Of a stretch of 64,000 nt of DNA, positions 20,997 through 50,913 are shown piece after piece (position 1 is the first letter of the stretch; each line of letters begins with the position of its first letter). Source of the DNA: Cryobacterium zongtaii (GTDB taxonomy: Bacteria > Actinomycetota > Actinomycetes > Actinomycetales > Microbacteriaceae); contig NZ_PPXD01000024.1 of the NCBI RefSeq assembly GCF_002909375.1, positions 1 to 64,000 on the forward strand. The letters are read 5' to 3'. The position numbers and the translations under genes were made by a program. The notes beneath the pieces were generated by a model, which saw only the letters and a program-made list of their open reading frames with translations, made no database searches and was not told the DNA's origin.

Positions 20997-20999
20997 ATC

Positions 21000-29408: not shown

Positions 29409-29452
29409 GGCTGAGCGAGGTGCCTCTGACACCTCGGGCACCTCGCTCAGCC
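29409..29452 (+). terminator. Intra-operon hairpin after the binding-protein gene
   Basis: GGCTGAGCGAGGTGCC and GGCACCTCGCTCAGCC pair perfectly over 16 bp with a 12-nt loop. No T tract follows. Such hairpins stabilise or partly terminate the mRNA so that more binding protein than permease is made. Confidence 0.75.
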
Positions 29453-29490
29453 CCGCTGTGCCCCAACCTCCTATCGAAGGCGAGTAACCC

Positions 29491-33160: not shown

Positions 33161-33230
33161 CCGGCGCCGGGCGCACTGCGCACACCACGTGCTGACTGCA
33201 CCGATCCAAAAAAGACCAAGCGAGGCAAAC

Positions 33231-34400: not shown

Positions 34401-34475
34401 GCCTTCCCGCCCGCGCCATCCCGCTCTACCCGCCGCATCCCGCCCACTTGCAGCTGCCTGCATTGAGGAATATCC

Positions 34476-37400
34476 GTGACCACGCACACCATCCACCCGT
34501 CCACTACCGATCCTGCCGCAGCCGTCACAGCCCTGCCAGCCGAGCGTAGCCCCATGAGAGTCGCGCCGACGGCGGCGTTGCTGGAGGCGGGGACCACTCG
34601 CATCGAGCTGTCAGCCGCGGGTGACGTGCGTGCCATCACGTACGGGGAGTCGATGCTGGTCAACCAGTATGTGCCGAGCGAGCATGACGCAATGGTCGGC
34701 GGCGTGTTCTTGCGCCGCCACGGTCTGGACGCCTCGGGTACTCGCATTGTCGAGGGGGTACCGCTCGTCGGTGGACGCTCGTTCGGTGACTTCGCTGCGG
34801 AGCCGGGCTACGTGCGCTGGTCAGGCCAGGCCCTCGGGGCGAGCTACGTGGTGACTCTCACTCTTGACCCGCACGGTGACGTCTGGGTGTGGCGGGTGGA
34901 CCTCGCGACCGGTGAGCCCGGCGCGGCGGGCTCCATCTACGACGTCATCTTCGCCCAGGACCTTGCCCTCGTGCCGTTCTCGACGGCCGTCAACAACGAG
35001 CCCTACGTGAGCCAGTACGTCGTGCACCACGTGCTCGACGACGCCCGCGCCGGAACCGTCATCGCGAGCCGGCAGACCATGGCGACTGCGCCCGTGCTGC
35101 CTCTGGCGGTGACCGCCCTCGTCGAAGGTGCTCGCGCCTACCTCACCGACGGATTCTCTTTCTATGGGCTCAACGCGAAGATCGATGGCCGCGCTCACAG
35201 CCTGGGTGTGCCCGACTGGGACTCGCTCATCTATCAGTACGAGTTTGCCTTACCGGCGCTACTCGGCCCCGAGTTCGATCTCACCGCTCCGCGAACCGTG
35301 CACGCGGTGACAGCCGTGGTCGCGGATTACCGCGGAGAACTCGCTGTCGCCCTCGACGAGGTGCCTGGGCTGTTCGATCGCGCGCTCGCGCTCGCGCTGA
35401 GCAGCGCGCCCTCAGCACCGAACGACGGTGTGCGCTCCGCCACAGCGAACACCGCCCCCGCTGCCGAGTCCCCCACGTCGTCCCGCTCCCTGCTGGTATC
35501 GGCCCCGCTGCTGTGTGGCCTCGACCTCTCCGACGCCGAGCTCACCGAGCTCGGGACCGTGTCGGCGAACTCCGACGCGTCGTCCCGGGTCCTCCAGCCC
35601 GAGCGCGACGATGCCGGGAACCTGCGGTCCTTCTTCACGCCCGAGGCCACCCACGTCGTCAGCCGCGCAAAGGAACTCGCGGTTGAGCGACCCCACGGGC
35701 ACGTCCTCAAGGCCGGCACCGACGTTAGCCCGAACGACAACATCCTCTCCGCGACGGCCTACGCCTACGGGGTCTTCGCCTCCCACGTTGTCGTCGGGAA
35801 CACGACCGCCAACCGTTTCGTTTCCGTCCAACGCAACCACCTCAACCTGCTGCGTTCCTCAGGGGTGCGGGCACTCGTTCGAATAGGTGACCGGTGGCAG
35901 CTGCTCGGAGTGCCCTCCGCCCTCATCCTCGACCTCGGCGGGGTCCGTTGGATCTACGCGACCGAGGACGGTCGCATCGAGGTGCGCACGACGGCGAGCC
36001 ATGACGCCCGTGCCATCGAGATCTGCATCGACTCCGAGCAGCCGATCGACATCATCCTCACCGTGGATGTCGAGCTCGGCGGGCAGTCGTGGACCGCAAG
36101 CCGGGCCCTCAACGGCCGCGCGATCGTCTACGCTGCGGACGCCGGGACCGACGTCGCCGAGCACTGCCCTGATCTCGTCTACGTACTCGCCAGTGAGGCC
36201 GGGCGCTTCGGTGACGACACGGCGCTCTTCCCCGACGGCCGCTCCCATGGCACGAACCTGACGACTGTCGCTTTCGACGCAACGACCTCGGCCTCGCTTG
36301 TGCTCTCCGGTGACCTCGACGGCGCCGCGGACGCCCTCGCCCACGCCGAGGCGGTGCTCAACAACCCACTCGACGTCGCCGCCGAGCTCGAGGCGCACCG
36401 CGGTTACATCGCCGACTACACGCGCAACCTACGGGTCGAGGGCGACGGCCGCCTCACCGAGATCAACCTCCTGCTGCCGTGGTTCACGCAGAACGCGCTG
36501 GTTCACTTCCTCGTCCCGCACGGTCTCGAACAATACTCCGGCGCGGCCTGGGGCACCCGTGACGTCTGCCAGGGACCGCTCGAGCTCAACCTCGCCTTCG
36601 GTCACTTCGACGCGGCGCGCGACATCGTCCGCCGGGTGTTCGCCCAGCAGTCCCCGGACGGGACCCTGCCGCAATGGTTCATGTTCGACGCCTACCGCGA
36701 GCGGTACTCCGACGAGGCCCACGGCGACGTTGTCGTCTGGCCCCTGATGGCGCTGGGGGAGTACCTGGCTGCGACCGGCGATACGACGATCCTCGACGTC
36801 ACGGTGCCGTACTGGGACGGCGAGCTACGCCGCCCGGGCAGCGTGGCTGCGCCCCTCACCGACCATGTGCGCGCCTCCCTGAACTACATCCGCAGCCACC
36901 GCGCCCCTGGGACTGACCTGCTCTCGTACGGTGAGGGCGACTGGGATGACACCCTCCAGCCCGCACAGGCCTCAATGAGCCGTGAGATGGCCTCCGCCTG
37001 GACCGTCGCCCTTCTGTTTCAGGCGGTCAGCACCCTCGGCGGCCAGCTTCGGGGGACCGCGCACGACTCGCTCGCCACCGACCTCATGTCCGAGGCGTCG
37101 ACGATAGCGGCTGAATTCGCTGAGCGTCTCATCATCGACGATGTGCTCGCCGGCTACGTCGTCTTCACCCCCGAGGGCCCGCGGCCCGTGCTGCACCCCA
37201 GCGACGACCGGACGGGGCTTTCCTACCGGCTCATCCCCATGACCCGGTCGATCATCGCCGGGCTGTTCACCCCTGAGCAAGCATTGCGCCACGAGAGTCT
37301 CGTCGAGGAGCACCTGCACTTCCCCGACGGCGTCCGCCTCATGGACCGGCCCGCGCCCTTCCACGAAGGCCAGACGCGATTCTTCCGTCGTGGTGAGCAA

Positions 37401-38015
37401 GCGGCGAACTTCGGCCGTGAAGTCGGGCTCATGTACACCCACGCCCACATCCGCTACACGCAGGCCCTCGCGACGCTGGGCCGTGAGCGGCTCGTCACGG
37501 AGCTGCTGAGAATCAGCCCAGTCGGCCAGTTCGAGCGACTGAGCACGAGCATGCCGCGCCAGCGAAACTGCTACTACTCCTCCTCCGACGCAGCCTTCAC
37601 CGACCGCTACGACGCCGCCGCGAATTTCGACCGGTTGCGAGATGGCACCGTCGGGGTCAAGGGCGGATGGCGCGTCTACTCCAGTGGCCCGGGTATCTAC
37701 CTTCGCCAGCTGGTGCAGGGAGCGCTCGGCCTCGTCGAGCGAGCCGGCGCGGTGGTCATAGACCCGGTCCTCGCTCTCGAGGACGACGGCCTCACGATCG
37801 CCATCGACCTTGCCGGCGAGCGTCGCACGGTGCGCTTCCACGTCGAGCCCGGCAGCGGGGATGTCCGCGTGATGGCCGACGGCGCGCCCCTCACCGGGGT
37901 CAAGACGACGGCGCACTACCGCCAGGGTGGCCTGTCCGTCTCGTTCGCGGACCTCATCGGAATCTCGGTCCTCGACGTTCACGTCGGCGTTGACCGCAGC
38001 ACACTTGAGGCCTGA
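34476..38015 (+). CDS. GH94-type glycoside phosphorylase, possibly 1,2-beta-oligoglucan phosphorylase
   Basis: A 1179-residue protein. The C-terminal half carries the GH94 (alpha/alpha)6 barrel: YSGAAWGTRDVCQGPLELNL, then the catalytic-Asp region YGEGDWDDTLQPA (residues 818-825), and GGWRVYSSGPGIYLRQLVQG near the end. The N-terminal beta-sandwich is long. Such lengths are typical of the 1,2-beta-oligoglucan (sophoro-oligosaccharide) phosphorylase branch rather than 800-residue cellobiose phosphorylases. Reaction: phosphate attacks the glucan to release glucose 1-phosphate. Cytoplasmic. GTG start with GAGGA upstream. The specificity is inferred from length and context, not proven. Confidence 0.8.
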   Translation: MTTHTIHPSTTDPAAAVTALPAERSPMRVAPTAALLEAGTTRIELSAAGDVRAITYGESMLVNQYVPSEHDAMVGGVFLRRHGLDASGTRIVEGVPLVGGRSFGDFAAEPGYVRWSGQALGASYVVTLTLDPHGDVWVWRVDLATGEPGAAGSIYDVIFAQDLALVPFSTAVNNEPYVSQYVVHHVLDDARAGTVIASRQTMATAPVLPLAVTALVEGARAYLTDGFSFYGLNAKIDGRAHSLGVPDWDSLIYQYEFALPALLGPEFDLTAPRTVHAVTAVVADYRGELAVALDEVPGLFDRALALALSSAPSAPNDGVRSATANTAPAAESPTSSRSLLVSAPLLCGLDLSDAELTELGTVSANSDASSRVLQPERDDAGNLRSFFTPEATHVVSRAKELAVERPHGHVLKAGTDVSPNDNILSATAYAYGVFASHVVVGNTTANRFVSVQRNHLNLLRSSGVRALVRIGDRWQLLGVPSALILDLGGVRWIYATEDGRIEVRTTASHDARAIEICIDSEQPIDIILTVDVELGGQSWTASRALNGRAIVYAADAGTDVAEHCPDLVYVLASEAGRFGDDTALFPDGRSHGTNLTTVAFDATTSASLVLSGDLDGAADALAHAEAVLNNPLDVAAELEAHRGYIADYTRNLRVEGDGRLTEINLLLPWFTQNALVHFLVPHGLEQYSGAAWGTRDVCQGPLELNLAFGHFDAARDIVRRVFAQQSPDGTLPQWFMFDAYRERYSDEAHGDVVVWPLMALGEYLAATGDTTILDVTVPYWDGELRRPGSVAAPLTDHVRASLNYIRSHRAPGTDLLSYGEGDWDDTLQPAQASMSREMASAWTVALLFQAVSTLGGQLRGTAHDSLATDLMSEASTIAAEFAERLIIDDVLAGYVVFTPEGPRPVLHPSDDRTGLSYRLIPMTRSIIAGLFTPEQALRHESLVEEHLHFPDGVRLMDRPAPFHEGQTRFFRRGEQAANFGREVGLMYTHAHIRYTQALATLGRERLVTELLRISPVGQFERLSTSMPRQRNCYYSSSDAAFTDRYDAAANFDRLRDGTVGVKGGWRVYSSGPGIYLRQLVQGALGLVERAGAVVIDPVLALEDDGLTIAIDLAGERRTVRFHVEPGSGDVRVMADGAPLTGVKTTAHYRQGGLSVSFADLIGISVLDVHVGVDRSTLEA

Positions 38016-38032
38016 CCATGGAGGAACATCTG

Positions 38033-40549
38033 ATGACATCGCCGGCGGACAACCCCACCCCATCGCTCTCGGCGGGCGAAGAGCAATTGGCGCAGGCCTC
38101 CACGGGCCTGGTTGACACCGAGACCTACATCGACCCGGAGCTCGTCGCGCTGTGCCGGGAGTCCGCCGCTGACGGGACTGTCCTGCTCCGCAACGACGGC
38201 ACCCTCCCTTTGCGCGGGGGGTCGCGCATTGCGCTCTTCGGGCGGGTCCAGATCGACTACTTCTCGGTCGGGTACGGGTCGGGCGGGGACGTCAACGCTC
38301 CGTACTCCTGGAACCTTCTGGACGCACTACGCGACGGCGGCCAGGTCACCGTCGACGGAGATCTCGCCGCGTCCTACACACGCTGGTGCGCGGAGAACCC
38401 ACCCGACGAGGGCACTTGGGGGAATTGGCCGCGCTACTTCGAGGAGATGCCCCTCGAAGGCGAGGCCGTTCGAGCCGCCGCAACCCGGGCGGACGTCGCC
38501 ATCGTCGTCCTGGGGCGTGCCGCCGGGGAAGCGCGAGAGAACACCCTGACTCAGGGCAGTTATTACCTCACGGACGCGGAGAAGAGCCTGCTGGACGCGG
38601 TCACCTCAGCGTTCACGCACACCGTCGTGGTGCTCGATTGCGGCAACGTCATCGATCTCGCCTGGCTGGACCAGTACGGCGAGGCGATCTCCTCGGTGCT
38701 CTACGCCTGGCAGGGCGGCATGGAGGGCGCGCGGGCCATCGCGGATGTCCTGACCGGCGTGCAGGTGCCCGGAGGGCGACTCACCGACACCATCGCACGT
38801 TCCTACGCCGACTACCCGAGCGCACCGAACTTCGGCGGGCTCGAGCATAACGACTACGCGGAGGACATCTACGTCGGCTACCGGTACTTCGAAACCTTCG
38901 CGCCCAACGCCGTCCTCTTTCCCTTTGGGTTTGGTCTCGGGTACTCGAGACTCGATGTGGTGGCCACGGCCTACGTCAACGACGAGGAGGTCACGGTCAC
39001 CGCGCGCGTGAGCAACGTCGGGACGGAGCATCCCGGCGCTGAGGTCGTCCAGGTGTACGTCCAAGCGCCGGACGGCGAGCTCGGCATGCCTGCCCGCACG
39101 CTGGCGTCCTTCGCGAAGTCGCGACGACTGGACCCGGGCGAGAGCGAGTCGTTGCACCTGGCGTTCCCGATCGCCTCTCTGGCCTCTTACGACGATTCCG
39201 GGGCAACCGGCCATCGGTCCGCCTACGTCCTCGAGGCCGGTGAATACAAGGTGTTCGCCGGCACCGACGTGCGCGCGGCGACCCAGATCGCCTCGTTCAC
39301 GCTCAGCGAGCTGCGCGTCGTCGAACAGCTGACCGAGGCGTGCGCACCCGCCGCCGCTCACCCCTTCCAACGGATGATTCTCGACCGCGACGACGCCGGT
39401 CGCGCCGTCGTCGGGTGGCAGGATGTCCCCACGCGGGAGGTCTCCCGCCGCGAACGGCTCCAGGCACGCACGGTTCCGGTACTGGAGCAGACCGGAAGCC
39501 AGGCCGTCACCCTGGCCGATGTCGCTGAAGGGGCAGCGACGCTCGACGAGTTCGTGGCCCAGCTCTCCCACGAGGACCTGGAAGCGCTCACCCGAGGTGA
39601 CGCAGTCATGGACAGCCCGCTCGGGACGCCCGGGAACGCTGGCGTGTTCGGCGGCATCACCGCGTCGCTACGAGCCAAAGGCGTGCCTCCCATTACGACG
39701 ACGGACGGCCCCTCCGGCATCCGGCTGGCGGCCTACGCTGCGCTCCTGCCCTGCGGAGCGGCACTCGCCTCAACCTGGAACACCCCGCTCGTGCGTCGAC
39801 TCGCGGCACACCACGGCGAGGAGATGGTCCGCAAGGGCACCCACGTGCTACTCAGCCCGGGAATGAACATCCACCGTGACCCCCTGTGCGGGCGCAACTT
39901 CGAGTACTTCTCCGAGGACCCGCTGGTCACCGGCCTTATCGCGGCCGCAGTCGTGGCCGGCGTCCAGGAAGCGGGAGTAGCGGCCTGCCCCAAACACTTT
40001 GCGTGCAACAACCAGGAAACCAACCGGAACCTCAACGACTCGAGAGTCTCGGAACGGGCCCTGCGGGAGATCTACCTGCGCGGGTTTCAAATCTGCCTCG
40101 CCCAGGCGCGCCCGCACACCCTCATGACGTCGTACAACAAAATCAACGGCGCATGGTCGCACTACAACGACGAGTTGTGCACGACGATCCTGCGGGAGGA
40201 GTGGGGATTTGAGGGAACGGTGATCACCGACTGGTGGATGCAGCGCGCCGTCGACCCGGATTTCCCGGCAGTGGCTGACGACGCATACCGGGTCCGCGCG
40301 CAGGTCGACGTCTTTATGCCTGGCGGATGGTTCGACCACGTCAGCGGCGGCTTCGACACCACTGCGGCATCGTCTCTGCTCGATTCCCTCGCTCGCCCAG
40401 ACGGCATCACACTCGGTGAAGTCCAGCGCACCGCCCGAACCGTCCTCCAGCTCGTTCTGGCGCTACCCGCGCTGAGCGAGGAGATCATCAGGAACTCACG
40501 GGAGAGGAGCCTGCCATTCATGAGCTCCGCCAGGCGTGAAAGACCTTGA
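38033..40549 (+). CDS. GH3 beta-glucosidase with reversed domain order
   Basis: An 838-residue GH3 enzyme. Unusually, the C-type domain comes first (LLRNDGTLPLRGGSRIALFG; GYGSGGDVNAPYSW; GFGLGYSRLD), then a fibronectin-III-like domain (VTARVSNVGTEHPGAEVVQV), and the catalytic TIM-like domain last (PPITTTDGPSGIRLAAYAAL; LSPGMNIHRDPLCGRNFEYF; ACPKHFACNNQETNR). The nucleophile is Asp 733 in GTVITDWWMQ. This permuted order is known in some bacterial GH3 enzymes such as those of Ruminococcus and Butyrivibrio. No signal peptide is seen. GGAGGA spaced 7 nt before ATG 38033 decides the start. Confidence 0.92.
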   Translation: MTSPADNPTPSLSAGEEQLAQASTGLVDTETYIDPELVALCRESAADGTVLLRNDGTLPLRGGSRIALFGRVQIDYFSVGYGSGGDVNAPYSWNLLDALRDGGQVTVDGDLAASYTRWCAENPPDEGTWGNWPRYFEEMPLEGEAVRAAATRADVAIVVLGRAAGEARENTLTQGSYYLTDAEKSLLDAVTSAFTHTVVVLDCGNVIDLAWLDQYGEAISSVLYAWQGGMEGARAIADVLTGVQVPGGRLTDTIARSYADYPSAPNFGGLEHNDYAEDIYVGYRYFETFAPNAVLFPFGFGLGYSRLDVVATAYVNDEEVTVTARVSNVGTEHPGAEVVQVYVQAPDGELGMPARTLASFAKSRRLDPGESESLHLAFPIASLASYDDSGATGHRSAYVLEAGEYKVFAGTDVRAATQIASFTLSELRVVEQLTEACAPAAAHPFQRMILDRDDAGRAVVGWQDVPTREVSRRERLQARTVPVLEQTGSQAVTLADVAEGAATLDEFVAQLSHEDLEALTRGDAVMDSPLGTPGNAGVFGGITASLRAKGVPPITTTDGPSGIRLAAYAALLPCGAALASTWNTPLVRRLAAHHGEEMVRKGTHVLLSPGMNIHRDPLCGRNFEYFSEDPLVTGLIAAAVVAGVQEAGVAACPKHFACNNQETNRNLNDSRVSERALREIYLRGFQICLAQARPHTLMTSYNKINGAWSHYNDELCTTILREEWGFEGTVITDWWMQRAVDPDFPAVADDAYRVRAQVDVFMPGGWFDHVSGGFDTTAASSLLDSLARPDGITLGEVQRTARTVLQLVLALPALSEEIIRNSRERSLPFMSSARRERP

Positions 40550-41170
40550 AACGACTGGCCCCTGCCGCACCCAACGAATCGCTAGGTTAGGATAACCGCG
40601 GCGCTTGATCTCTTCCCCTCCGGGCTAGCCAGGAGCTCAGACTCTGCATCTCGCTCCATCAGTCGGAGTGTTCACGGTCAGGACGGAATTCCCCAGCGCG
40701 GCTACCGCCGACTGTGTCCCCACGCGGGCAATAAAATCGGAGCCCGCCTCAGGCTTGTGCGAGCCGTCGAGGCACTCAAAACCTCGACCCATCGGTCGGC
40801 TTTTGGGGTCGGATCAAATTTCAGGTTGAGACGCTTTGCGGTGGTCGGATATATTGAATCGGCGGGCAAACAGACAACGTGAAACCACGGAGATTCGGGT
40901 ATTCCGAAAGGGTATGCGCCGAGACATTCCCGATGTTGAATCAGAGCGCTCAGGCCTGAATCACAGTACATGTAGCGCCCGCATCTCAGAGAAATGGCGG
41001 AAGTTCCTGACGCGGCCGACGCTCCGGCGGGTAAATACCAGGGGAGTCCTATTCTGCAAGTTCTGCAATAGATACAGTACTTGTTGACATAATCATTATT
41101 ATCGGCGGTCAGGATAGACGCTACGAAAGATTTGAAGACGCCAAAGTCAGCTCCTCCTGGGGCCGTGCGA
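40550..41170. other. Intergenic region, no gene recognised
   Basis: Open frames here have poor protein character. GC content drops in places, for example TTGACATAATCATTATTAT around 41083-41101, which offers a possible -35 TTGACA but no clear -10. It separates the sugar operon from the convergent nuclease island. Confidence 0.4.
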
Positions 41171-41869
41171 TCACAGATCAACCCAGCCTCGGCTCAGCTG
41201 AGTAAGAGTGAGCGCGATGTCGACAAGCGCCGCAATTGCGCATCCGCGCGCCCACCATCTCGCTTTCAGCGCGGCGGCGAGTACCGCGCTGGAAGCGAGA
41301 GCCAACGCGCCGACACCGTTGGTGATGAGGACTATCGTTCGAGCGAGGTTAGAGCTCACCGAGTCGAACACGGCGAAACCGGTAACCACATAGGCGCCGC
41401 CGATGCTGGCGATCGTCCAGCAGATCCACAGGACGATGGTGAGGACGAGGACCGTGTTGTGGTCGGGCTCGCCGCCCCCCGAGAAGACGGGCTCGGGGCG
41501 GGGTCGAAAAGCGAATGTCTCCCGGTACTCCTGAACAGGACCGTCGAGAATCGCTCGCACCGGCGGAGAGAGCACGCCGCCGGGAAGCGCGAGGAAGTGG
41601 GCAACCCGCGCCTCGTCGACACCGGATGCCGCGAGCAAGCGAGCGAGCCGGTCTCGCTCGAGGTCGGTCGTCCAGTCCGGGATGTCGACCCCCCACCGGC
41701 CGGCCTGGTCCGGGTGTCCCATCTGCCGGTAGCATTCGGCCAGCATTCGACGGACCTCGTCGAAGGAGGGATGAGCACGAATCGCGTCTTTCAACACCCT
41801 TAGCGCCCCTGCCCGGTCGTCGGCTTCCCAGGCAGAGTGCGCTTGTGCCAGAACCAGCTTCTCGAACAT
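41171..41869 (-). CDS. DUF6584-like protein with TPR-like start and two TM helices
   Basis: About 232 residues. The N-terminus forms two tetratricopeptide-like helices (HSAWEADDRAGALRVLKDAI and VRRMLAECYRQMGHPDQAGR), followed by WGVDIPDW, like the actinobacterial DUF6584 family. Two to three transmembrane helices close the protein (TVLVLTIVLWICWTIASIGG and ARTIVLITNGVGALALAS). ATG 41869 is preferred over the TTG at 41890. Function is unknown; it is the downstream edge of the nuclease island. Confidence 0.6.
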   Translation of the reverse strand: MFEKLVLAQAHSAWEADDRAGALRVLKDAIRAHPSFDEVRRMLAECYRQMGHPDQAGRWGVDIPDWTTDLERDRLARLLAASGVDEARVAHFLALPGGVLSPPVRAILDGPVQEYRETFAFRPRPEPVFSGGGEPDHNTVLVLTIVLWICWTIASIGGAYVVTGFAVFDSVSSNLARTIVLITNGVGALALASSAVLAAALKARWWARGCAIAALVDIALTLTQLSRGWVDL

Positions 41870-42066
41870 CCGCCCAGTTTGACCGCGCAACCCTTGCTCC
41901 CCTACTCGGTCATTGCAGCCTGATGTGGCGCGCTAGCTCAGCCGAGAGTTTAGGGCACGACTGAGCGAGCGGACAGTCCGGCATTGCAGGGCCAGTGCTG
42001 CGGCGAAAATCTCGAGTACCCACGGCGTGAAAATCCTATTGAACGCTCGCTGGATGGATGACGTTT

Positions 42067-43101
42067 TCAGGGCTCGTCGGGAACCCAGTCGAGGGCGGCC
42101 GCTAGCTGTTCAGCGGCAGGAAGAGCACTGCGTTCGTCGTCGGGCAAGGTGTCGTAGGAATACGTCGAGACAGCCATCGGGGAAGCGGCGCGACCGAGTG
42201 AATATCTCACGGTGTGGTCGTTGCGGCTGCCGCAGATCAAGATACCGACAGTTGGTGCGTGGGCGCTGCGGCGGAGCCGGTCGTCGACCAGGGCGACGTA
42301 AAACCCGAGCTGTCCGGCGTGCTCCGGCAGGAACTTTCCTGTCTTGAGTTCGATGACGACGTAGCGCAGTTGTTCGACGTGGAAGAACAAGAGGTCGAGG
42401 TAAAAGTCGTCGCCGTCGACGTCGAAGTGGACTTGGCGGCCGACGAATGCGAATCCGGCGCCAAGTTCGCGGAGGGTGTCAACGATACGGTCCATGAGCG
42501 CTTGTTCAAGTTCGCGTTCGGCGACGTCGGCCGTGAGGTCAAGGAAGTCGAAGACGTAGGGGTCTTTGGCGAGTTGGTGTGCCAGGTCGGAGTCTGCTGG
42601 CGCGAGCTGGGTGCTGAAGTTCGACGGTGATGATCCGATTCGCGCGCGGGTCTGGTTCATGATTTGGTTCATCAGCACGTTTCGGGACCACCCGTGTTCG
42701 GCTGCTGCAGCTGCGTACCATTCACGGTCTTCGCGCGAATCGAGTTTGTCGAGCAGGACGGTGACGTGGCCCCACGGCAATTGGCCAACAGCTTGTTGGC
42801 CAATTGGGCGCTGGTTGTTCCAGGCCTGTGCGAATGCTCGCATGTATTTCAGGTTTGACCGCGAAAACCCTTTCATGCCCTGGAACTCGGCTTGCAGGTC
42901 ATCAGCTAATTGGTTGAGGACACCCGTGCCCCACCCTCCTTGTGCTTGGCGGGAGGAGAGAACGGTGCCGATGTGCCAGTAGAGCTCGAGCAAGTCCGTA
43001 TTGACGCGTCGCTGGGCACGCAAGCGGGCGCCGCGGACTCGGGTTTTCAGCTCCTCGAGGACCAGCCGGTAGTCGCCGGGCACAAGTGTGTTGTCAGACA
43101 T
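42067..43101 (-). CDS. PDDEXK nuclease domain protein (DUF1016/YhcG family)
   Basis: A 344-residue YhcG-type protein. An N-terminal helical DUF1016 domain (ELYWHIGTVLSSRQAQGGWG; LADDLQAEFQGMKGFSRSNL; GHVTVLLDKLDSREDREWYA) precedes a C-terminal PD-(D/E)XK nuclease core. The core shows DDFYLDLLFFHVEQLRYVVI and ELKTGKFLPEHAGQLGFYV, supplying the D and E-x-K residues. The family is frequent in defence-island and mobile-element contexts, with a presumed role in DNA cleavage or repair. ATG 43101 is chosen as in other members. It is followed by the DUF6584 gene and preceded by an exonuclease gene, same strand. Confidence 0.88.
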   Translation of the reverse strand: MSDNTLVPGDYRLVLEELKTRVRGARLRAQRRVNTDLLELYWHIGTVLSSRQAQGGWGTGVLNQLADDLQAEFQGMKGFSRSNLKYMRAFAQAWNNQRPIGQQAVGQLPWGHVTVLLDKLDSREDREWYAAAAAEHGWSRNVLMNQIMNQTRARIGSSPSNFSTQLAPADSDLAHQLAKDPYVFDFLDLTADVAERELEQALMDRIVDTLRELGAGFAFVGRQVHFDVDGDDFYLDLLFFHVEQLRYVVIELKTGKFLPEHAGQLGFYVALVDDRLRRSAHAPTVGILICGSRNDHTVRYSLGRAASPMAVSTYSYDTLPDDERSALPAAEQLAAALDWVPDEP

Positions 43102-43272
43102 CGATCGGAGCTTACCTGACCGCAATTCTCTACTGTCGGAGTTCAGCGCCGCGCACAATTCGAGAGCGCAACGAAGCTTTCGTCGACTTCCAGACCGTCT
43201 TCTGCTCAGGATCTCAACCAGACCGGGAGACTACCCCGGGAGGGCTGAATCAATCTGGTGGTAGCGAGTGTT

Positions 43273-44166
43273 TCAGAAAGTCAGAATTTCGAGGAATGTC
43301 TGCTCAGTGACAATCTCGATCGATTGACCGGCAACAGCGAGCTCCTGGGCTCGCTGGATCTTAGAACTCAGCGTCGCACCGACCCGGAGGGTGGCTGGGT
43401 CGAAGCCTCCCATGACGACCAGGGAAGTCTTCTTCGTGACGTTTCCCGACACAGCCGCCCCGAATGAGGCAACGAGATTCTGAGCCTCCGAGCGAGTGTA
43501 GCTATCGAGATCACCAGAAAAACAGATCACCTCGCCGAAAAGGGGATGGTGGGGATCCGCTACAGCGCTCGCCTGCGGAAGATCGGCTTTCTTCTGATAG
43601 ATGCGAGATCGAGTTGCCCTGACTTTGTCCCGGGCGGGGACCGATGCCCACAACTCCTCGACCGTTCCCGCACCGCGTTCCTGGGCCACACGTAGTGTGA
43701 TCTGGGCGCACGCAAGTGAGTCTGCCCCTGCTTCATGGTGGTCGAAGCCCGCCAACCCGAAGTGCGCGATAACGAGGGGGAGCTTGTGGCTAGGGAGCTG
43801 GCAGTGATGTCGAACGATGGCCAAGGCGTCGAAGAATGCGAAGTCCGACGACGGCGTGCCAGTGAGGTTATTGGCGGCGTTGTAGACGCCCTTGTCGAAT
43901 GGGCTGTACGCGATGAGCGGGTCCCCATCAGCGACCTGGCTAATGCGCTGTAATGACTCCTGCCAAGACGGAGCGCCGGAGACCTGCTCCAACCCGATGC
44001 CGTGCAAGTAGGTATTCGTGAAATCCAGACCAGTGGGCGGGGTGACAAACCACGACTCGGTAGAGGAAACGCGACCATCCACGACTTTTGTGAGGCCTAC
44101 GGCGCAAACGGATGCCCGATCGAAGTTGGCTGTTTCGAAGTCGATTGAGACGAAGTTCAGGGGCAT
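43273..44166 (-). CDS. DEDDh exonuclease with C-terminal BRCT domain
   Basis: A 297-residue protein. FVSIDFETANFDRASVCAVG is the ExoI motif (D-x-E) of the DnaQ/epsilon 3'-5' exonuclease fold; LIAYSPFDKGVYNAANNLTG is ExoII; and FDHHEAGADSLACAQI is ExoIII with the His and Asp. The C-terminal third (GEVICFSGDLDSYTRSEAQN then LVASFGAAVSGNVTKKTSLV and SSKIQRAQEL) is a BRCT domain like that of DNA ligase A. Such fusions occur in proofreading-like or DNA-repair nucleases. No polymerase is linked. Part of the nuclease island. Confidence 0.9.
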   Translation of the reverse strand: MPLNFVSIDFETANFDRASVCAVGLTKVVDGRVSSTESWFVTPPTGLDFTNTYLHGIGLEQVSGAPSWQESLQRISQVADGDPLIAYSPFDKGVYNAANNLTGTPSSDFAFFDALAIVRHHCQLPSHKLPLVIAHFGLAGFDHHEAGADSLACAQITLRVAQERGAGTVEELWASVPARDKVRATRSRIYQKKADLPQASAVADPHHPLFGEVICFSGDLDSYTRSEAQNLVASFGAAVSGNVTKKTSLVVMGGFDPATLRVGATLSSKIQRAQELAVAGQSIEIVTEQTFLEILTF

Positions 44167-44249
44167 ACCCGCAGTCTAGGTTTCGCGATCGGTCATGCCC
44201 GGCGGTTCCTTGGGGCGTGGAAGCCCCCAATAGTGGTCCTGCTCAAGCC

Positions 44250-45242
44250 CTAGGCGGTTGTCCAAAGGTTTGCGCGCATCCCATTGCGTATGAGCCGGAA
44301 GCGTTGGTATGGCCCATACATCCCGGTCATGATCTGTAGATCCTCCAGCCGCCATCCTGCGTCGACAGCGCTGGCATGCAATTGTGCGAGCACTTCACCC
44401 TGAGCAGTGAAAGCTGTGTCGGATATCGCATCGACGCCAACTAAGTTGCATGTGGCATCCCAATCTTCTCCGCCAGCATTGAACTTCTCGAAGATTCGGA
44501 TACTCGATGCTTGCTCACCGGTGAAGAGGTGGTCGCCCCAGGGGAGCTGGGACACGGATCCGAAATTGTCCATCTCGGTCAGCAGCTCGATGAGTGGGGC
44601 CCTCCAGTGCGCTTTCGGGGTGCCGGCGAGGCCGAGCCAGCATATATAGCGAGGAGAACTCCACCCCTCCCCCACGGCCAGATAGTTTCCGCCATCCATC
44701 GCAACCATCCGTTCGATGGTGTTCCCGTCGCCTCTCCAGGAGACGTAGAAGGCATTCTCCGTATACTTGTGGGGAGAGATTGCCCCAAGACGGGAAGGCG
44801 CTTTCGGGTTCTTCGGGCGAACCGCCTTCGCTATGTGCCGAACCGTCCCGGGCCGACCCGCGACAGCATCTCCAATCGCCTCAATTAGGGCTTCGATCGA
44901 TGCCTTGGTGGGAGCAGAGGACTCGGAGACGACATCGTGTGGCCCGACTTCGCTGAGGCCGCCGAGCCGCAGTCGAACGACTGTCCAACCCACTTCCCCC
45001 AACAGCTGGTTTCGGAGTTGATCTTTCTCGAATTCGTCCGCGTGGGTGTAGCCGGAATCAATCTCCACAGCAACCTTGGCGCTCTTGATGAGGATGTCTG
45101 GAGAAAGCACCGGGTGATTATCCCTGGAGGCTTCGTGCCCGCATTGAATGGCCGAGCGGCCTTTGTGAAGCTTTAGCCGAGCGTCGAAAAGTTTCTGCCG
45201 GACGCTTTCTTCCATCTTGGACGTACTCGGGTTCTTGGACAT
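44250..45242 (-). CDS. Protein with Vsr/DUF559-like endonuclease domain
   Basis: About 330 residues. The N-terminal domain has a Vsr/DUF559-like PD-(D/E)XK pattern: LSPDILIKSAKVAVEIDSGY, then DQLRNQLLGEVGWTVVRLRL (conserved D-xRN and GW-V-R). The rest (about 150-330) contains GNTIERMVAMDGGNYLAVGE and GDHLFTGEQASSIRIFEKF and resembles no known family. Vsr-type enzymes nick mismatched DNA; relatives in islands act as restriction nucleases. ATG 45242 is used because the domain begins soon after. It is divergent from the gene at 45464. Confidence 0.65.
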   Translation of the reverse strand: MSKNPSTSKMEESVRQKLFDARLKLHKGRSAIQCGHEASRDNHPVLSPDILIKSAKVAVEIDSGYTHADEFEKDQLRNQLLGEVGWTVVRLRLGGLSEVGPHDVVSESSAPTKASIEALIEAIGDAVAGRPGTVRHIAKAVRPKNPKAPSRLGAISPHKYTENAFYVSWRGDGNTIERMVAMDGGNYLAVGEGWSSPRYICWLGLAGTPKAHWRAPLIELLTEMDNFGSVSQLPWGDHLFTGEQASSIRIFEKFNAGGEDWDATCNLVGVDAISDTAFTAQGEVLAQLHASAVDAGWRLEDLQIMTGMYGPYQRFRLIRNGMRANLWTTA

Positions 45243-45463
45243 GACAACTGCCCCTATTTCGTACCTCGCGCTGCGCACCACGGACACCCCCAGTAATAGT
45301 TGCTCGGATAGTATCGACGGCCACCGACACCCAGATAGGACACTCTCGCTGGGATGGCCGCGGTGCACTTCAGCCGACGATGTGCAGGTTAGGTCCAGGT
45401 CGGCAGCGTCTGCCGTGCTTTGCGTGAGCCGGCTAAAGTGTTCGTCGTCGATAGACTCCGACT

Positions 45464-45805
45464 ATGCCGCTCGACCTGACCTTTCTCCTGGTTGGCATCG
45501 CTATTGTCGTGATTACCATTTGGTGGGGTAGCAAGGCGTTGTTGGCCCGGTTTCAGAAGCGAACAGCCGAACGGCAGTGGTTCGAGGCAACAACTAGGGC
45601 TATTGCCGCCACTCCAGATTTGCTTGACACGATCGGGCCGCTCAGCGAGGAAGAGCTGCGCGAACTGCTCAAGCAAATCGTTTTCGAGATCACGCGCGCA
45701 GGTGCTGTGAGCTGGGCGGATTTGGTCGGAACCGTCGGATGGGTTCGGAAGAGAGTACGGGAGCAGGCAGAAAATCCCGAGATAGAACCAGCCGCCGAGC
45801 TGTAG
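45464..45805 (+). CDS. Small single-pass membrane protein
   Basis: A 113-residue protein with one N-terminal transmembrane helix (FLLVGIAIVVITIWWGSKAL) and a charged cytoplasmic domain: TRAIAATPDLLDTIGPLSEE, ELRELLKQIVFEITRAGAV. No family is recognised. It lies between two nuclease genes of opposite strand, upstream of the NERD gene in the same direction, so might be its partner, which is speculation. Confidence 0.5.
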   Translation: MPLDLTFLLVGIAIVVITIWWGSKALLARFQKRTAERQWFEATTRAIAATPDLLDTIGPLSEEELRELLKQIVFEITRAGAVSWADLVGTVGWVRKRVREQAENPEIEPAAEL

Positions 45806-45893
45806 GCGTCGACGAACGGATAGCGGCATTTACACAGCCAAAGGGGACCGAAGAGGAGCCCGGCGACATCCGCTGCTCCAGTTCCGAATCAAT

Positions 45894-46880
45894 ATGGAAA
45901 ACGCCCCCAATCATGGCTACACCGCGCTAGAGCTCCTTCGCCTGCGGTCCAGCGGCCCTAGTGTGTCTAACGTGAGCGGTGACGCGGCGTTGCCGCCAAA
46001 GACAATGCGGCTTCGATACGCGGGACGATGCCGAATATGCGCGTTGGAAATCTCTGCGGGGACGATGGCGGTGTACGAGCGGGAGACCAAGACCGTCGTC
46101 TGCCTAGAGTGCCCTCCAAATCCGCCTCTCGCTGCACCCGCGATCGTCAGCACAACGAACGCCCTGCCTCTGGAGGTCTCCACGGCCGCCGGTCCGGAAC
46201 CACAACCAGAGCCGGCTGAGGTCTTCACGGGCGTCGCGGGTGCCTCGGCTAAACGAGAATACGACCGACGTAAGGACAGGCGTCAGGCGCGGATCCGTGA
46301 CGACCACCCCTACCTGGGGAAGCTCATACTCGCGGTGAGCGATGATCCGCAAAGTACCCGGGCGTGGGCCATCGGAGCGCGAGGAGAGGAAGTTCTGGGC
46401 CAACGGCTCGACAAACTCACGGGGCGTAACATTCACGTTCTCCACGACCGTCGCATCCCCCGCACGAGAGCCAATATCGATCACATCGCTGTCTGCCCCA
46501 CCGGGGTCTTCGTCATTGACGCCAAGAAATATCAAGGTCGTCCCAGCTTGCGAGCCGAAGGAGGCCTATTCCGTCCCCGCACGGAAAAACTGATAGTCGG
46601 CTCACGCGACTGCACCAAACTTGTCGACGGCGCACACAAGCAAGTCGACCTCGTCCGATCTGCACTCGAAGACGCGGACCTCGAGGGGGTTCCCGTGCGT
46701 GGGCTCCTCTGCTTCGTGGACGCCGACTGGCCACTCTTCGGTGGCGACTTCACGATTGACGGCGTCCATGTCACCTGGCCGAGAAGAGCACTCGAGAACC
46801 TAATGAAGCCCGGCCCAGTAGATGATCAGACCGCGAGGCACATTCATCGTACGCTCGCGTCCTGCTTCCCACCCGCCTGA
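45894..46880 (+). CDS. NERD-domain nuclease-related protein with zinc ribbon
   Basis: A 328-residue protein. The N-terminal part holds a CxxC pair with a second pair (CRICALEISAGTMAVYERE then CLECPP), a likely zinc ribbon. A flexible Pro-rich linker leads to a C-terminal NERD domain: AIGARGEEVLGQRLDKLTG, then ANIDHIAVCPTGVFVIDAKK (the D-H-V/A and D-A-K motifs equivalent to PD-(D/E)XK residues), and VPVRGLLCFVDADWPLF. NERD proteins are thought to process nucleic acid. It converges on the T4SS operon end. Confidence 0.85.
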   Translation: MENAPNHGYTALELLRLRSSGPSVSNVSGDAALPPKTMRLRYAGRCRICALEISAGTMAVYERETKTVVCLECPPNPPLAAPAIVSTTNALPLEVSTAAGPEPQPEPAEVFTGVAGASAKREYDRRKDRRQARIRDDHPYLGKLILAVSDDPQSTRAWAIGARGEEVLGQRLDKLTGRNIHVLHDRRIPRTRANIDHIAVCPTGVFVIDAKKYQGRPSLRAEGGLFRPRTEKLIVGSRDCTKLVDGAHKQVDLVRSALEDADLEGVPVRGLLCFVDADWPLFGGDFTIDGVHVTWPRRALENLMKPGPVDDQTARHIHRTLASCFPPA

Positions 46881-46956
46881 GGGTTGATCCGACGGTTCCA
46901 GCGATCGTCGCAGCCGACAGGTTCGACGACCCATACCCGTTTCAAAGAGTATTTGT

Positions 46957-47385
46957 TCAGACTCTTACGTCGGGGAACATGCCCGCCGGAGGTGCCTCGT
47001 AGGGCAAGGGCTCGCCCGGCTTGTTCTGATCGTCGGAGTCCGCGAATGGCCCATCAGCGCTCATGAGAATCGGCATGTGGTGGTCCAGGTGGTCGCGCCA
47101 CCAGGTGCTTGACCCGGTTGCCCCGTCCAGCCGCAAATGTTCCCAGGAACGCCACAGCGCCTCGAGGCGGGCGATGGCTTCGGGTGACCTCCACCACTCT
47201 GCCGCCCAGCGCCTTGAGGCACGGTTCGACGGGCCCACCACGCGCCGGTAGGTCTGGCTCAGCTGCTCTCGCACGAACTCGTCGACTGACCCGAAGACCA
47301 GGGTGGGCGCCGGGGATTCTTCCGCCGATTTGTCGTCGGAGACGGCATCGAGGTCGTCGTCCAGGTCGTCGTATCCGTTAGACAC
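46957..47385 (-). CDS. DUF4913 protein
   Basis: About 142 residues. An acidic N-terminus (YDDLDDDLDAVSDDKSAEES) precedes a helical domain with FVREQLSQTYRRVVGPSNRA, RRWAAEWWRSPEAIARLEAL and WWRDHLDHHMPILMSADGPF. This is the DUF4913 pattern found at the end of actinobacterial conjugation operons. Its role is unknown. GTG 47385 is preferred for the start because AGAGG precedes it; ATG 47400 overlaps virD4 more. Last gene of the T4SS operon. Confidence 0.75.
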   Translation of the reverse strand: MSNGYDDLDDDLDAVSDDKSAEESPAPTLVFGSVDEFVREQLSQTYRRVVGPSNRASRRWAAEWWRSPEAIARLEALWRSWEHLRLDGATGSSTWWRDHLDHHMPILMSADGPFADSDDQNKPGEPLPYEAPPAGMFPDVRV

Positions 47386-49192
47386 CAGTGCGCCTCTCAT
47401 CCTTGATCGCTGTGCTGGCGTTCAGCCACGGATGAGCCGGCTCGGCTGGCGCGGGCAACGTCTGGCCGCTCGGGTCGTGTGCAGCAATCGACGCCCGCAC
47501 GGCCTCAGCTTGCTTGCCTTCCATCCAGGGCACAGTGGCCACCAGCGTTGCCGGGGCACCGGACGCAAACACGACGGCGCGGCCGCGCGGCAGCGACGTG
47601 AGCTCCGACACCTCGAAGGTGTGCTCTCGACGGTTAGCAAGCGACGTCGAGCGCTGCCCCTTACCCACCGAGACGGAAGATGTTCGCAGGGTAAAGTCAC
47701 CGATCAGCTGGGATAGCTCACCGAGGAATTCCGTCTCCGCGACGCCGCCGCCGTAAACCTTGATGTTGGAGGCTGACCAGAGCTTGCGCATTCCCTCGCG
47801 GCCCCAGACCTCGACGCCCTGTGACCAGGACTGGAGGATCGTCATCAGGACGATCCCGCGTGAACCGTAGTGCGAGTACAAGTCAGGCAAGTTGCGCCAA
47901 CGGCACACGTTCGCGGCCTCATCGAGAACACCGAGCATCGGAACAGCGAGGCGACCGCCTGGCTGGGTCGTGGCCAGCTCTTCGGCGGCCTCAACGGTGA
48001 TCGCGGTCAACGCTGTCACGAGCGGGCCGGCGCTGCCCTGACCCTCCTTGGAGAGGCTGTAGAGGGTGTCTTGGCTGCGCACGAACGCGTCGGGGTCGAA
48101 CTGCGGCCGCCGATCCGCTTGGGCGTTGCAGCCCAGCGGCGTCACCCATCGGGCAATGCCGCTGATCTTCAAGCAGTCGACCATTTGCGCGGCGGTGCCG
48201 TACACGCTGTCGCGTCGTTTCGGCTCGCCATTCACTTCGCCGGCCACGGCGTCGGCCATGCCGTCGTATCCGTGATCTTCCAGGATCCGCACCGGTTCCT
48301 GATCGCCCGGCTTGGTCGTCCAGGTGAACACCTGAGTGATTGGCTTCTGGCCCAGGGCCGCGGCCAGGAGAAAACCCGCGAGAAGGTTCTCGCCGGCCCG
48401 GTTAAAGTACGACGAGTTTTCGCTACCGCCGCCGCTCATCGTCGACGACGAAAAATGTGCGGCCATCTTCGCGGCACGCACATCGTCGGTCACATACGAG
48501 AGTGGGTTCCACCACCAGCGGGGTTCTTCCCGGGCGATGCCTTGCGGGTCGAACGCCCACACCTTCGACCCGTTGGCCGATCGCACATCACGAGTCGCGT
48601 CGAGGACGTCGCGCTTGTTCGACGTCGTGAGGACCGCACCAGGTGCGCTCAGGATCGCCGGGATCGCTCGACTGGTCGACTTACCCGTACGAGGCCCCCA
48701 GATATCTACGTGCATGTCCTCAGGAGAGCCATAAAGCCACTGACGTCCCGCCACAGTGACTCCGATGGGGACACCGAGCCAGTCCGTCACCCCGAGGCGC
48801 TGCGCCGTGGCGCGTGCGCCCTTCGTTGTGAGCGCCGCCAGGTCTTTCCCTCGACCCATGTAGCGAGCGGCGCTGTCGACTCGGCTGCGCTTGGAACGGC
48901 CCCGGTTCACCTGAACAGCCACGAGGATCACCAGGACCAACACGACCACAGCAGCGCTGACAACGATCCACGTCGCGGCCATGGGCCACGCGTACGTCCC
49001 TTTGAGCGTGCCGAAGACAATCTCGAAAGGATCGCTCGGAAGATCCGGGTTCACCCCGTCGATTTTCGACCCGAAAACCATCCCGCCCCAAATGCCGCCG
49101 ACGAGCACGACGGCCAGGCCGATGAACACCCAAATGAGAACGCCGTCGCTGCCTCCGGCGTTCTGCTTGCGACGATCCGTTGCCTGGCTCAC
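47378..49192 (-). CDS. VirD4/TraG-type conjugal coupling ATPase
   Basis: A 604-residue coupling protein. Two N-terminal transmembrane helices (about 18-40 and 74-96) anchor it. WGPRTGKST (166-173) is the Walker A; LDEAANVCRW is the Walker B Asp-Glu region. The TraG/VirD4 signature IVLMTILQSWSQGVEVWGRE is present. It pumps relaxase-bound DNA into the T4SS pore. The GTG at 49192 overlaps the stop of the VirB4 gene (GTGA). It stops inside the start of DUF4913. Confidence 0.9.
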   Translation of the reverse strand: MSQATDRRKQNAGGSDGVLIWVFIGLAVVLVGGIWGGMVFGSKIDGVNPDLPSDPFEIVFGTLKGTYAWPMAATWIVVSAAVVVLVLVILVAVQVNRGRSKRSRVDSAARYMGRGKDLAALTTKGARATAQRLGVTDWLGVPIGVTVAGRQWLYGSPEDMHVDIWGPRTGKSTSRAIPAILSAPGAVLTTSNKRDVLDATRDVRSANGSKVWAFDPQGIAREEPRWWWNPLSYVTDDVRAAKMAAHFSSSTMSGGGSENSSYFNRAGENLLAGFLLAAALGQKPITQVFTWTTKPGDQEPVRILEDHGYDGMADAVAGEVNGEPKRRDSVYGTAAQMVDCLKISGIARWVTPLGCNAQADRRPQFDPDAFVRSQDTLYSLSKEGQGSAGPLVTALTAITVEAAEELATTQPGGRLAVPMLGVLDEAANVCRWRNLPDLYSHYGSRGIVLMTILQSWSQGVEVWGREGMRKLWSASNIKVYGGGVAETEFLGELSQLIGDFTLRTSSVSVGKGQRSTSLANRREHTFEVSELTSLPRGRAVVFASGAPATLVATVPWMEGKQAEAVRASIAAHDPSGQTLPAPAEPAHPWLNASTAIKDERRTGV

Positions 49193-50913
49193 ACCGTCAC
49201 CTCGCGATCGACAACGCCTGTCCTTGACGCGTCGTGCCACAGCTGGTTGGTGTCGTTGGAGTGCAGTTCTGCCTGCGTCAGCTCCACATTCAGAGGGATG
49301 CCGGGACGGCCACCGACCTTAATCAGGAACTTGCCACGCCCAGGCGGGTCGGCTTCCTTCCCGCTCACCGGATCCCACGCGGGCGGATCCTGCCAGCCCT
49401 GCAGCATGCTCTGCTCGGCCGCGCTCATGGTGATCGCGCTGTTAAGCAACGGCATTTCGGAGGCCGGGAGGCCTCCGCAAATGACCATGCCGGAACGCTC
49501 GACGAAGCCCTTGGCTTTCATCCGGTCTTCTTCATTGCTCAGTGACATGAGGTCGCTCATGGTGTGAGAAATCATGGCCATGCCCACGCCCCGCGCCCGG
49601 TTCAGACGCGTCAGCGCGTCCACCCGGTCGACCATGCCACGGCCGGCGCGCAGCGCCCGCCACAGCTCGTCGAGGATAACGAAGTAGTGACGGCGCGGTT
49701 CTAGCTCGGCGTCGGCCAGGGCCGTCGCCACGTTGACCGTGCCGAAGCCCGCCGACCAGCACGCCAGCAGCACCGCGGCCTGCAGGTCCATCTCCGAGTC
49801 ATCGATGCTCGACACGTCATAGACCACCGGGCGGTCACGCTTCATCCGCACAGTGGTCTGCTGGGAGAACAATTCACCCAAGCGACCGCCGGAGACGAGG
49901 CCGATGAGGGACGCTTCCAGGTTCTCCGTAATTTCCTGATAGCGGCCCATGTCGCCACGGTCCAGGGCTACGGAACGCAGTTCAACAGGTGCCTCACGGA
50001 TCAGTTCGAGAAGATCGCTGAGGACCGGAATCCCGTCGTGATGCGCGTCCAAGTATTTGAGCGCCGCGTCGATAATCGTCTCTTCACGGTCAGTCGGCGG
50101 CTCTCGGCGCATGATCGTCAGCAGAGCGGACACCATCGTGAGGCGACGCCCGTGGGCGTCCTGCAGAACCTGTGTCGCAAGGCGCTCATTGCGCGTGATG
50201 TTCTCGGCGTGGACGGGCATCGAACCGACGAGCTGCGCGGAGCGCTCGCGGATCACCTGCGCCGCAATCTTGTCGTCGGGTACATCGGCGGCGCGGAGCT
50301 GGGCTAGCTCGGCTTCCTCTTCTGCGATCGCTTTGCGTTCGCGGTTGGCGGCATCGCGGAGCAGCTGCGCGGCCTCGCCGGCTTCGCCGGGATCCAGAAT
50401 ATTCAGGTACCCGCGGCCGCGGCCGAGGGTAATGACCTGCCCCTTCATCTCCTTGACGAGGTCCACGTAGTCGGGCTTCAAATCCCCGAGGATGAGGGGC
50501 TGCACGCCATAGCCGGCCAGCCCCGTCGCCATCCGGCGGATGAGCGTGGACTTGCCTAGGCCGGGCTTGCCGAGCACGAAGGCCGAAGGGTTTGAAATCA
50601 GGTTGGCACGCTGGAACCAGCTAATTGGATCACAGCAGACGGTGCCGCGATTGATCAGGTGCCGGCCGAGCGGCACACCGATCATCGGGGCACCCGTGCC
50701 TACGCCGAACGGCCAGAGGCCGCAGACCTGAACGGTGGTTCCGCGCCACTCAGGTGCGGGAGAAATCACCATCGTTTCGCCCCCTCCGCGTCCCGGCCAC
50801 CCGCGAGCGGGCGGGCGGCGCGTGATGGGCTTGGCAGCCGCGGTCGCTGCGGCCTTTGCAGCCGCGCGGCCTGCTCCACTGAGGGGCGACGCGGGCTTTG
50901 TGAACCAGCTCAT
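49189..50913 (-). CDS. VirB4-like T4SS ATPase
   Basis: A 574-residue ATPase. Walker A GKPGLGKS (115-122) follows NLISNPSAFVL; Walker B is YFVILDELWRAL; and MAMISHTMSDLMSL plus GKFLIKVGGRPGIPL fit the VirB4/TrbE C-terminal core. It powers pilus assembly and substrate transfer at the inner membrane. The N-terminal membrane-associated region of classical VirB4 is reduced here; the preceding gene (SCO6880-like) probably supplies it. ATG overlaps the upstream stop by one base. Confidence 0.88.
   Translation of the reverse strand: MSWFTKPASPLSGAGRAAAKAAATAAAKPITRRPPARGWPGRGGGETMVISPAPEWRGTTVQVCGLWPFGVGTGAPMIGVPLGRHLINRGTVCCDPISWFQRANLISNPSAFVLGKPGLGKSTLIRRMATGLAGYGVQPLILGDLKPDYVDLVKEMKGQVITLGRGRGYLNILDPGEAGEAAQLLRDAANRERKAIAEEEAELAQLRAADVPDDKIAAQVIRERSAQLVGSMPVHAENITRNERLATQVLQDAHGRRLTMVSALLTIMRREPPTDREETIIDAALKYLDAHHDGIPVLSDLLELIREAPVELRSVALDRGDMGRYQEITENLEASLIGLVSGGRLGELFSQQTTVRMKRDRPVVYDVSSIDDSEMDLQAAVLLACWSAGFGTVNVATALADAELEPRRHYFVILDELWRALRAGRGMVDRVDALTRLNRARGVGMAMISHTMSDLMSLSNEEDRMKAKGFVERSGMVICGGLPASEMPLLNSAITMSAAEQSMLQGWQDPPAWDPVSGKEADPPGRGKFLIKVGGRPGIPLNVELTQAELHSNDTNQLWHDASRTGVVDREVTV

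Follow-up and report, generated by a model that had tools for sequence, protein, structure and literature searches.

A nuclease-rich gene island beside the transfer genes of Cryobacterium zongtaii contig C31 appears to be assembled from separate cargo units

Results

Six genes between sugar-use and transfer genes

The window analysed here is a 64,000-base stretch of DNA from Cryobacterium zongtaii (assembly GCF_002909375.1), the first part of C31 (NZ_PPXD01000024.1), a 121,844-base contig of a 4.05-Mb genome (G000), and our subject is an island of six genes, A to F, at 41171-46880. All six frames are intact and their composition is coding-like. A preliminary description of this DNA had read four nuclease-fold proteins in under 6 kb here, accompanied by a membrane protein and a DUF6584 protein, and had suggested either an undescribed system or accumulated cargo. 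All six genes were confirmed in place, and the families read for the four nucleases agreed with Pfam, that of D narrowly. The described position also held, with sugar genes on the left (LacI, ABC transporter, GH1, SOGP-type phosphorylase and GH3) and genes of a type IV secretion system (T4SS) on the right (DUF4913, a VirD4-type protein and an ATPase-like protein). In the following, G-codes denote relative genomes (G046 is C. lactosi), C-codes contigs and L-codes fetched stretches.

Judged by the longest open reading frames (ORFs), genes A to D lie 83-176 bases apart, E and F are separated by 88 bases, and D and E are divergent; therefore, nothing in spacing or orientation compels a single operon. 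Promoter-like and terminator-like sites were no commoner than in shuffles, and no direct repeats of at least 14 nt were found within 43900-47450. Hydropathy analysis gave two hydrophobic stretches in A and one N-terminal stretch in E, and two of the six island proteins therefore look like membrane proteins. The membrane-linked effector action proposed earlier found no support other than that A and E are there.

At the left edge of the island, a 30-base sequence (41078-41107) is identical in C. lactosi contig G046:C41 (about 59562-59591), 23 of these bases recur in G004:C2 (about 93866-93888), and a wider stretch (41040-41105) is 80% like G015:C44. The shared 30 bases may be a recombination or insertion site. 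The sugar-use operon beyond it occupies 26411-40549 and its ABC transporter is of the peptide type (SBP_bac_5); going by the SOGP name, we presume that the operon may serve beta-1,2-glucan or sophorose use.

The island resolves into at least four units

When 40000-47500 was compared at the DNA level with 40 fetched stretches, of which three came from elsewhere on C31, and a protein map was added, each unit proved to have its own best DNA partner, with sharp limits: G046:C41 for B, G032:C52 for C, G046:C43 for D-E-F, and G055:C41 for the DUF4913 side (90%). Gene A likewise has its best relatives in other places. Only D-E-F was recovered as a unit elsewhere, in C. lactosi, where order and orientation are kept. 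This block (44250-46895) is 86.3% identical at the DNA level over 2655 aligned columns to G046:C43 (9733-12376), and the similarity begins approximately at the D stop codon and fades just beyond the F stop codon. No fetched relative joins two of the units, except that F, unaccompanied by D or E, stands with a DUF1016 gene in G002 and G027. Going by these comparisons, A, B, C and D-E-F are separate units, four at the least, rather than one system, as the accumulated-cargo suggestion had it, and the idea of four nucleases with membrane partners forming one undescribed system was rejected, as the units do not travel together in the relatives fetched.

The preliminary description had proposed to judge that idea by whether homologues co-occur beyond chance and whether single genes have housekeeping-like distributions. 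Co-occurrence beyond chance was not seen for A or C, and D-E-F recurs once as a syntenic, constrained block. For F with DUF1016, a chance reading is not clearly borne out, the two being neighbours in G002 (L104 9304-11872), where 0.6 kb separates F (64%) from a DUF1016 gene (44%) that belongs to another subfamily, while in G027 (L105 6289-10540) some 3 kb separate F (83%) from a DUF1016 gene that is truncated (36%). Other Cryobacterium genomes have seven F loci in all, including these two and one in G011 that is on a 3.2-kb contig. A housekeeping-like distribution was found only for the exonuclease half of C, as detailed below.

Genes A, B and C

Each gene was searched for in 149 relatives, every count of matches taking in the own genome, and in 72,556 plasmid records, from which the own genome may be missing. 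Gene A (41171-41890, minus strand) encodes a TPR protein (TPR_19, 6.5e-8 in Pfam) with the two hydrophobic stretches noted above. The earlier DUF6584 assignment proved borderline (28.8 against a cut-off of 27 bits), the TPR assignment being the better one; the single hydrophobic segment of the other companion, E, was borne out. Seven relatives matched A at 1e-3, strongly only G000, G034 and G045 (50 and 53% for the latter two), and no other island gene was found in the 20-kb stretches around the G034 and G045 genes (L124, L125). No plasmid record matched A.

Gene B (42067-43158, minus strand; an ATG start at 43101 is possible) encodes a DUF1016/YhcG protein of the PD-(D/E)XK type, as assigned with Pfam and PADLOC. 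DUF1016_N (1.5e-40) and YhcG_C (4.6e-50) both exceed their cut-offs in this one protein, and nearly its whole length matches PADLOC family PDC-S02 (4.7e-139). Both domains are thus common to B and the known DUF1016/YhcG proteins, from which it shows no structural difference; what the present analysis adds is its link to the DUF4913 edge within Actinomycetota. PDC-S02 is a candidate defence family in PADLOC, so that an anti-phage role of B is predicted at most. The protein is 93% identical to a copy on C. lactosi contig G046:C41 (DNA 86-90%), on which several DUF1016 copies and fragments lie in about 12 kb (L096, L097). Matches at 1e-20 numbered 42 among the relatives, and 468 plasmid records carry B/DUF1016, 173 of them typed conjugative.

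Gene C (43273-44166, minus strand) encodes a DEDDh exonuclease with a BRCT domain (RNase_T 1.4e-8, BRCT 8.8e-7 in Pfam) and is 77.7% identical in DNA to G032:C52 over 43275-44197. It shares the architecture of NF004844 (PRK06195, DnaQ-type exonuclease with BRCT), to which it aligns in full (residues 3-295); however, its score of 149.1 bits is far under the curated cut-off of 373, placing it outside the family as curated. Matches at 1e-20 were found in 86 relatives, most covering just about the first 172 residues, and matches of this kind occur in all Cryobacterium genomes (57/57). Near-full-length matches were limited to seven genomes (G000, G032, G074, G100, G133, G128 and G148), and 77 plasmid records matched. 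C as a plain housekeeping copy was rejected, given that the chromosomal paralogue, present in 57/57 Cryobacterium genomes, is a separate ORF of about 206 amino acids (aa) matching the exonuclease half alone. No other island gene was found around the C relatives (L106 with flanks L117 and L118; L107). In searches of Protein Data Bank (PDB) sequences, C matched exonuclease and BRCT chains only, and neither B nor F had a match.

Gene D carries a second domain with no family match

Gene D (44250-45368 as the longest ORF, minus strand) combines a Vsr/DUF559-like nuclease domain with a C-terminal domain that has no family match. DUF559 (PF04480) is passed narrowly (23.0 against 20.6 bits) over 44 residues (91-134 of the long ORF). 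The start is probably at 45242 (ATG) or 45287 (GTG) instead of 45368, because a one-base indel in the C. lactosi copy falls directly upstream of the GTG. Four full-length homologues were found, namely those of the window, C. lactosi (88%), pACHL01 (42%) and G756 (31%). E11, R15, D49, E60, D62 and H67 are invariant in the first half of all four, a pattern that we take to be that of DUF559/Vsr-like nucleases, with the catalytic role that these residues presumably have in the family. Compared with those nucleases, the conserved E, D, E-x-D and H are shared, whereas D has an extra conserved second domain, in which G185, Y187 and P234-W235-G236-D237 (PWGD), among others, are kept in all four homologues; the MTES_1575 model scored below its cut-off. 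This second half gave no match in Pfam, NCBIfam or PADLOC (E 0.1 each) or in PHROGs (E 0.01), and a profile search of PDB sequences with D found none at E up to 1. The predicted structure, from two near-identical sequences, has a mean pLDDT of 31.

D is a rare gene. Among the relatives, 41 matched at 1e-3, full length in G000 and G046 only, and the C-terminal half alone (own genome counted) was present in 1/396 genomes of the order, 2/57 of the genus and 2/335 of the class, the class sample adding the homologue in G756. Two plasmid records matched, one spanning most of D, and a scan of viral contigs gave 68 pattern matches with no relative among them. Within 10 kb of D on pACHL01 are genes for a type III methyltransferase, a Doc-family toxin and, by a weak match, a restriction-like helicase. 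Neither E nor F was found near D on pACHL01 or in G756, within about 10 kb on each side.

Genes E and F

Gene E (45464-45805, plus strand) encodes a 113-aa protein with one N-terminal hydrophobic segment. Three relatives, own genome included, matched at 1e-3; besides the own genome the match is strong only in G046, that in G031 being weak, and no plasmid record matched. Gene F (45894-46880, plus strand) encodes an N-terminal C-x2-C / C-x2-C cluster, read from the sequence, followed by a NERD domain (4.4e-15 in Pfam; 56.6 bits, above the PF08378 cut-off of 22.1). It is more widespread, with 26 relatives matching at 1e-10, including 8/57 Cryobacterium genomes, 19 plasmid records, and five weak partial matches in 50,697 phage records. 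NERD-containing defence proteins, such as Mokosh type I and Nhi-like ones, are described in PMC10952713; the NERD domain is common to these and F, and F consists of the zinc ribbon and NERD only. Mokosh and Nhi models found no match in the seven window proteins scanned (E 0.1), and across the named NERD systems (Mokosh, Nhi-like, BREX/Pgl and MADS) F gave only sub-threshold hits (PDC-S41, E 0.043; MAD6, 12.4 against 460 bits). In G034, G005 and G050 (L108, L109 and L110), F homologues share a common chromosomal-type neighbourhood near integrase-like and helix-turn-helix (HTH) genes; next to F, on the opposite strand, G005 and G050 both have a conserved ORF of 145-149 aa that matches nothing in Pfam.

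Selection and age of linkage

Genes B to F were compared with their nearest relatives by the Nei-Gojobori method for synonymous divergence (dS) and the ratio of nonsynonymous to synonymous divergence (dN/dS). The dS and dN/dS values were 0.54 and 0.06 for B, 1.32 and 0.08 for C, 0.34 and 0.19 for D, 0.49 and 0.15 for E, and 0.38 and 0.24 for F (0.41 and 0.28 when F was compared with G027); four backbone comparisons gave dN/dS of 0.07-0.12. B to F are thus under purifying selection. The chromosomal exonuclease gene, compared between the own genome and C. lactosi, has a dS of 0.24 over 176 codons, and the linkage of D, E and F does not look recent because the dS of the block is 0.34-0.49. From this one gene and one genome pair, D, E and F seem to have been linked since roughly the time at which the two genomes parted, with adjoining transfer genes that differ.

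The DUF4913 edge as a probable cargo hot spot

The right border of the cargo zone is the DUF4913 gene (46957-47400, minus strand; Pfam), which ends the T4SS run and is 95% identical in G055. A literature search on DUF4913 found no report in the library covered. The cargo at its junction differs between elements. The C. lactosi locus reads AbiEii-AbiEi-D-E-F-DUF4913-VirD4, its VirD4 being 36% identical to that of the window. G055, with a 98% identical ATPase besides its DUF4913, has AbiE at the junction and no D-E-F, its AbiE genes being 81-91% identical to the C. lactosi pair. Plasmid LW097 has the order DUF4913-AbiEi-AbiEii, and in G063 an AbiEii/DUF6036-like gene lies 0.7 kb from DUF4913. 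AbiE, usually classed as phage abortive infection, thus stands at this junction in G055, in LW097 and, together with D-E-F, in C. lactosi, and is absent from that of the window. In Arthrobacter NicSoilB4 the occupant is a DUF1016 gene, 59 bases from DUF4913 and followed by a sugar operon much like that of the window.

DUF1016 was a frequent neighbour, with DUF4913 less than 8 kb away in five of 12 annotated plasmid regions: besides NicSoilB4, the distance is 1.8 kb in D5-1, 1.3 kb in ANT_H28B, 4.9 kb in YC-RL1 and 7.2 kb in Dietzia DQ12-45-1b. One further region has a MobF relaxase in that range. In five of the six fetched contigs that have both genes the distance is below 8 kb (C31, 3.8 kb; G063, 7.7; G015, 5.7; G004:C2, 3.1; G131, 1.3), the sixth being G055 with 39 kb; DUF4913 without DUF1016 was seen in the fetched stretches of G054, G046:C43, G004:C3 and G112. 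In the handful of elements compared, the junction just past DUF4913 acts as a hot spot whose cargo is exchangeable and largely defence-like. Modular defence hot spots are known on mobile elements, for example on the Pseudomonas genomic islands described in PMC12629846, which the DUF4913 edge resembles in having a fixed border gene and exchangeable, partly defence-like occupants; the border here is, in contrast, the DUF4913/VirD4 end of an actinobacterial T4SS, and the comparison covers few elements and carries no enrichment statistic. DUF1016 is itself reported, in PMC4316617 and PMC6300072, as cargo within T4SS clusters of Rickettsia elements.

The transfer genes and other content of C31

Beyond DUF4913 follow, all on the minus strand, the VirD4-type coupling protein (47378-49240; Pfam), the ATPase-like protein (49189-50913) and an SCO6880-like protein (50913-52409), the latter two named by position from the annotated LW097 homologues. 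TraG-D_C and T4SS-DNA_transf score above cut-off in the transfer genes of the window. Elsewhere, C31 encodes M23 peptidase-like, HTH and ParB-like proteins, pilin-like and ParA-like proteins that both score below their cut-offs, and NikA/MobC-like and relaxase genes at 87.8-90.1 kb, the relaxase itself at 88.4-90.1 kb (53.5 against 24.6 bits; NikA-like, 29.4 against 27). A relaxase, a coupling protein and a T4SS are thus all present. Relatives of the coupling protein sit on named plasmids, the closest (94.8%) being that of Cryobacterium sp. LW097. C31 is probably a conjugative plasmid, because of its relaxase, mobilisation and partition genes and these plasmid-borne relatives.

C31 also carries a resolvase gene (104970-105782) and a DNA/RNA non-specific endonuclease at 429-1301 (PF01223, 1.6e-43), which is the fifth nuclease family of the contig. 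An LPD29 domain (large polyvalent protein associated) is encoded at 8102-8821 within a small plus-strand cluster of mostly short ORFs, and a dihydroxyacetone-kinase-like set (Dak1 and a fused EIIA-man/HPr/PEP-utiliser protein) with an iron-type alcohol dehydrogenase occupies 19244-25057.

Discussion

We consider it very probable that the island is the transfer-side end of an accessory region on a probable conjugative plasmid, into which separately moving cargo units have been inserted and exchanged at a hot spot, and that it is not one machine. Many of these units would be nuclease or abortive-infection genes, each entering or being exchanged independently just beyond DUF4913, and each would most likely act alone, being a small gene for anti-DNA defence or for competition between plasmids. 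B and C may be stand-alone DNA-processing nucleases. D is a candidate restriction-like nuclease against foreign DNA, in which the C-terminal half would pick the target; its action would have to be conditional, for example on modified or unusual DNA recognised by that half, because no methyltransferase family was matched by the seven genes at 41171-47400, the part of C31 searched for one. F would be a nuclease that uses its zinc ribbon to bind DNA or a partner. Several observations weigh against this explanation. D-E-F recurs intact in C. lactosi, its edges showed neither insertion machinery nor flanking repeats, and the ends of C31 show no terminal overlap. Of the 12 annotated plasmid regions, six have no annotated transfer gene within 8 kb of DUF1016; moreover, the 12 were a non-random set, about one per organism from 40 of the 468 records, and two of them were known beforehand to have VirD4 close by. 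Finally, pure accretion does not predict F beside DUF1016 in G002 and G027, for which shared cargo sites may be the explanation, the sole one that we can offer.

It is possible, though unlikely, that D-E-F is a functional three-gene defence module among unrelated cargo, an arrangement compatible with separately moving units, in which D would cut or nick foreign DNA, F would process it, and E would anchor or restrain both at the membrane. That C. lactosi keeps the order and orientation, with DNA 86% identical, although its T4SS backbone is a different one, would fit such a module, as would dN/dS values of 0.15-0.24 at a synonymous divergence above that of the chromosomal gene, and the defence genes near D (AbiE in C. 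lactosi; the type III methyltransferase and restriction-like helicase on pACHL01). However, the block recurs a single time, two of the four full-length D genes (pACHL01 and G756) have neither E nor F nearby, six further Cryobacterium genomes have F without the D C-terminal domain and without E, and D and E are divergent, hence no operon. We regard as quite unlikely the stronger proposal of an undescribed membrane-tethered two-nuclease defence module that travels between actinobacterial plasmids as a cassette, entering their hot spot on the T4SS side; D, with a new recognition domain bearing the PWGD motif, would mark or nick foreign DNA, the zinc ribbon-NERD protein F would destroy it, and E would tie both to the inner membrane at the point of entry of conjugating or injected DNA.

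Rather than phage defence, the island genes might serve competition between plasmids or entry into the recipient, attacking resident DNA or countering host defence. We hold this to be very unlikely: the relaxase gene is about 41 kb from DUF4913 in contig coordinates, and AbiE, with its phage abortive-infection class, occupies the same junction. In its favour, the island adjoins transfer genes and 173 of the 468 plasmid records matched by DUF1016 are typed conjugative; moreover, PMC11541004 reports an enrichment of anti-defence genes in plasmid leading regions, and DUF1016 takes the place of a toxin gene inside a Rickettsia T4SS cluster (PMC4316617, PMC6300072). Inert hitchhiking cargo with no selected function is highly improbable: the patchy distribution would suit it, as would the other DUF1016 copies in Cryobacterium that are short or interrupted, but the six frames are intact in the window and the dN/dS of B to F is 0.06-0.24. 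That all six genes make up one undescribed defence system is almost certainly wrong, since closeness and related folds are all that speak for it and the units part company in the fetched relatives, F with DUF1016 in G002 and G027 excepted.

With separately moving cargo units as the preferred explanation, a testable map replaces the tempting call of a new system for the island. The DUF4913 edge would be a place to seek small new defence genes in Actinomycetota. Within the island, on the strength of one recurrence, only D-E-F appears to leave room for an undescribed system, and this set, with a rare nuclease carrying a family-less putative recognition domain, is singled out as the one worth cloning.

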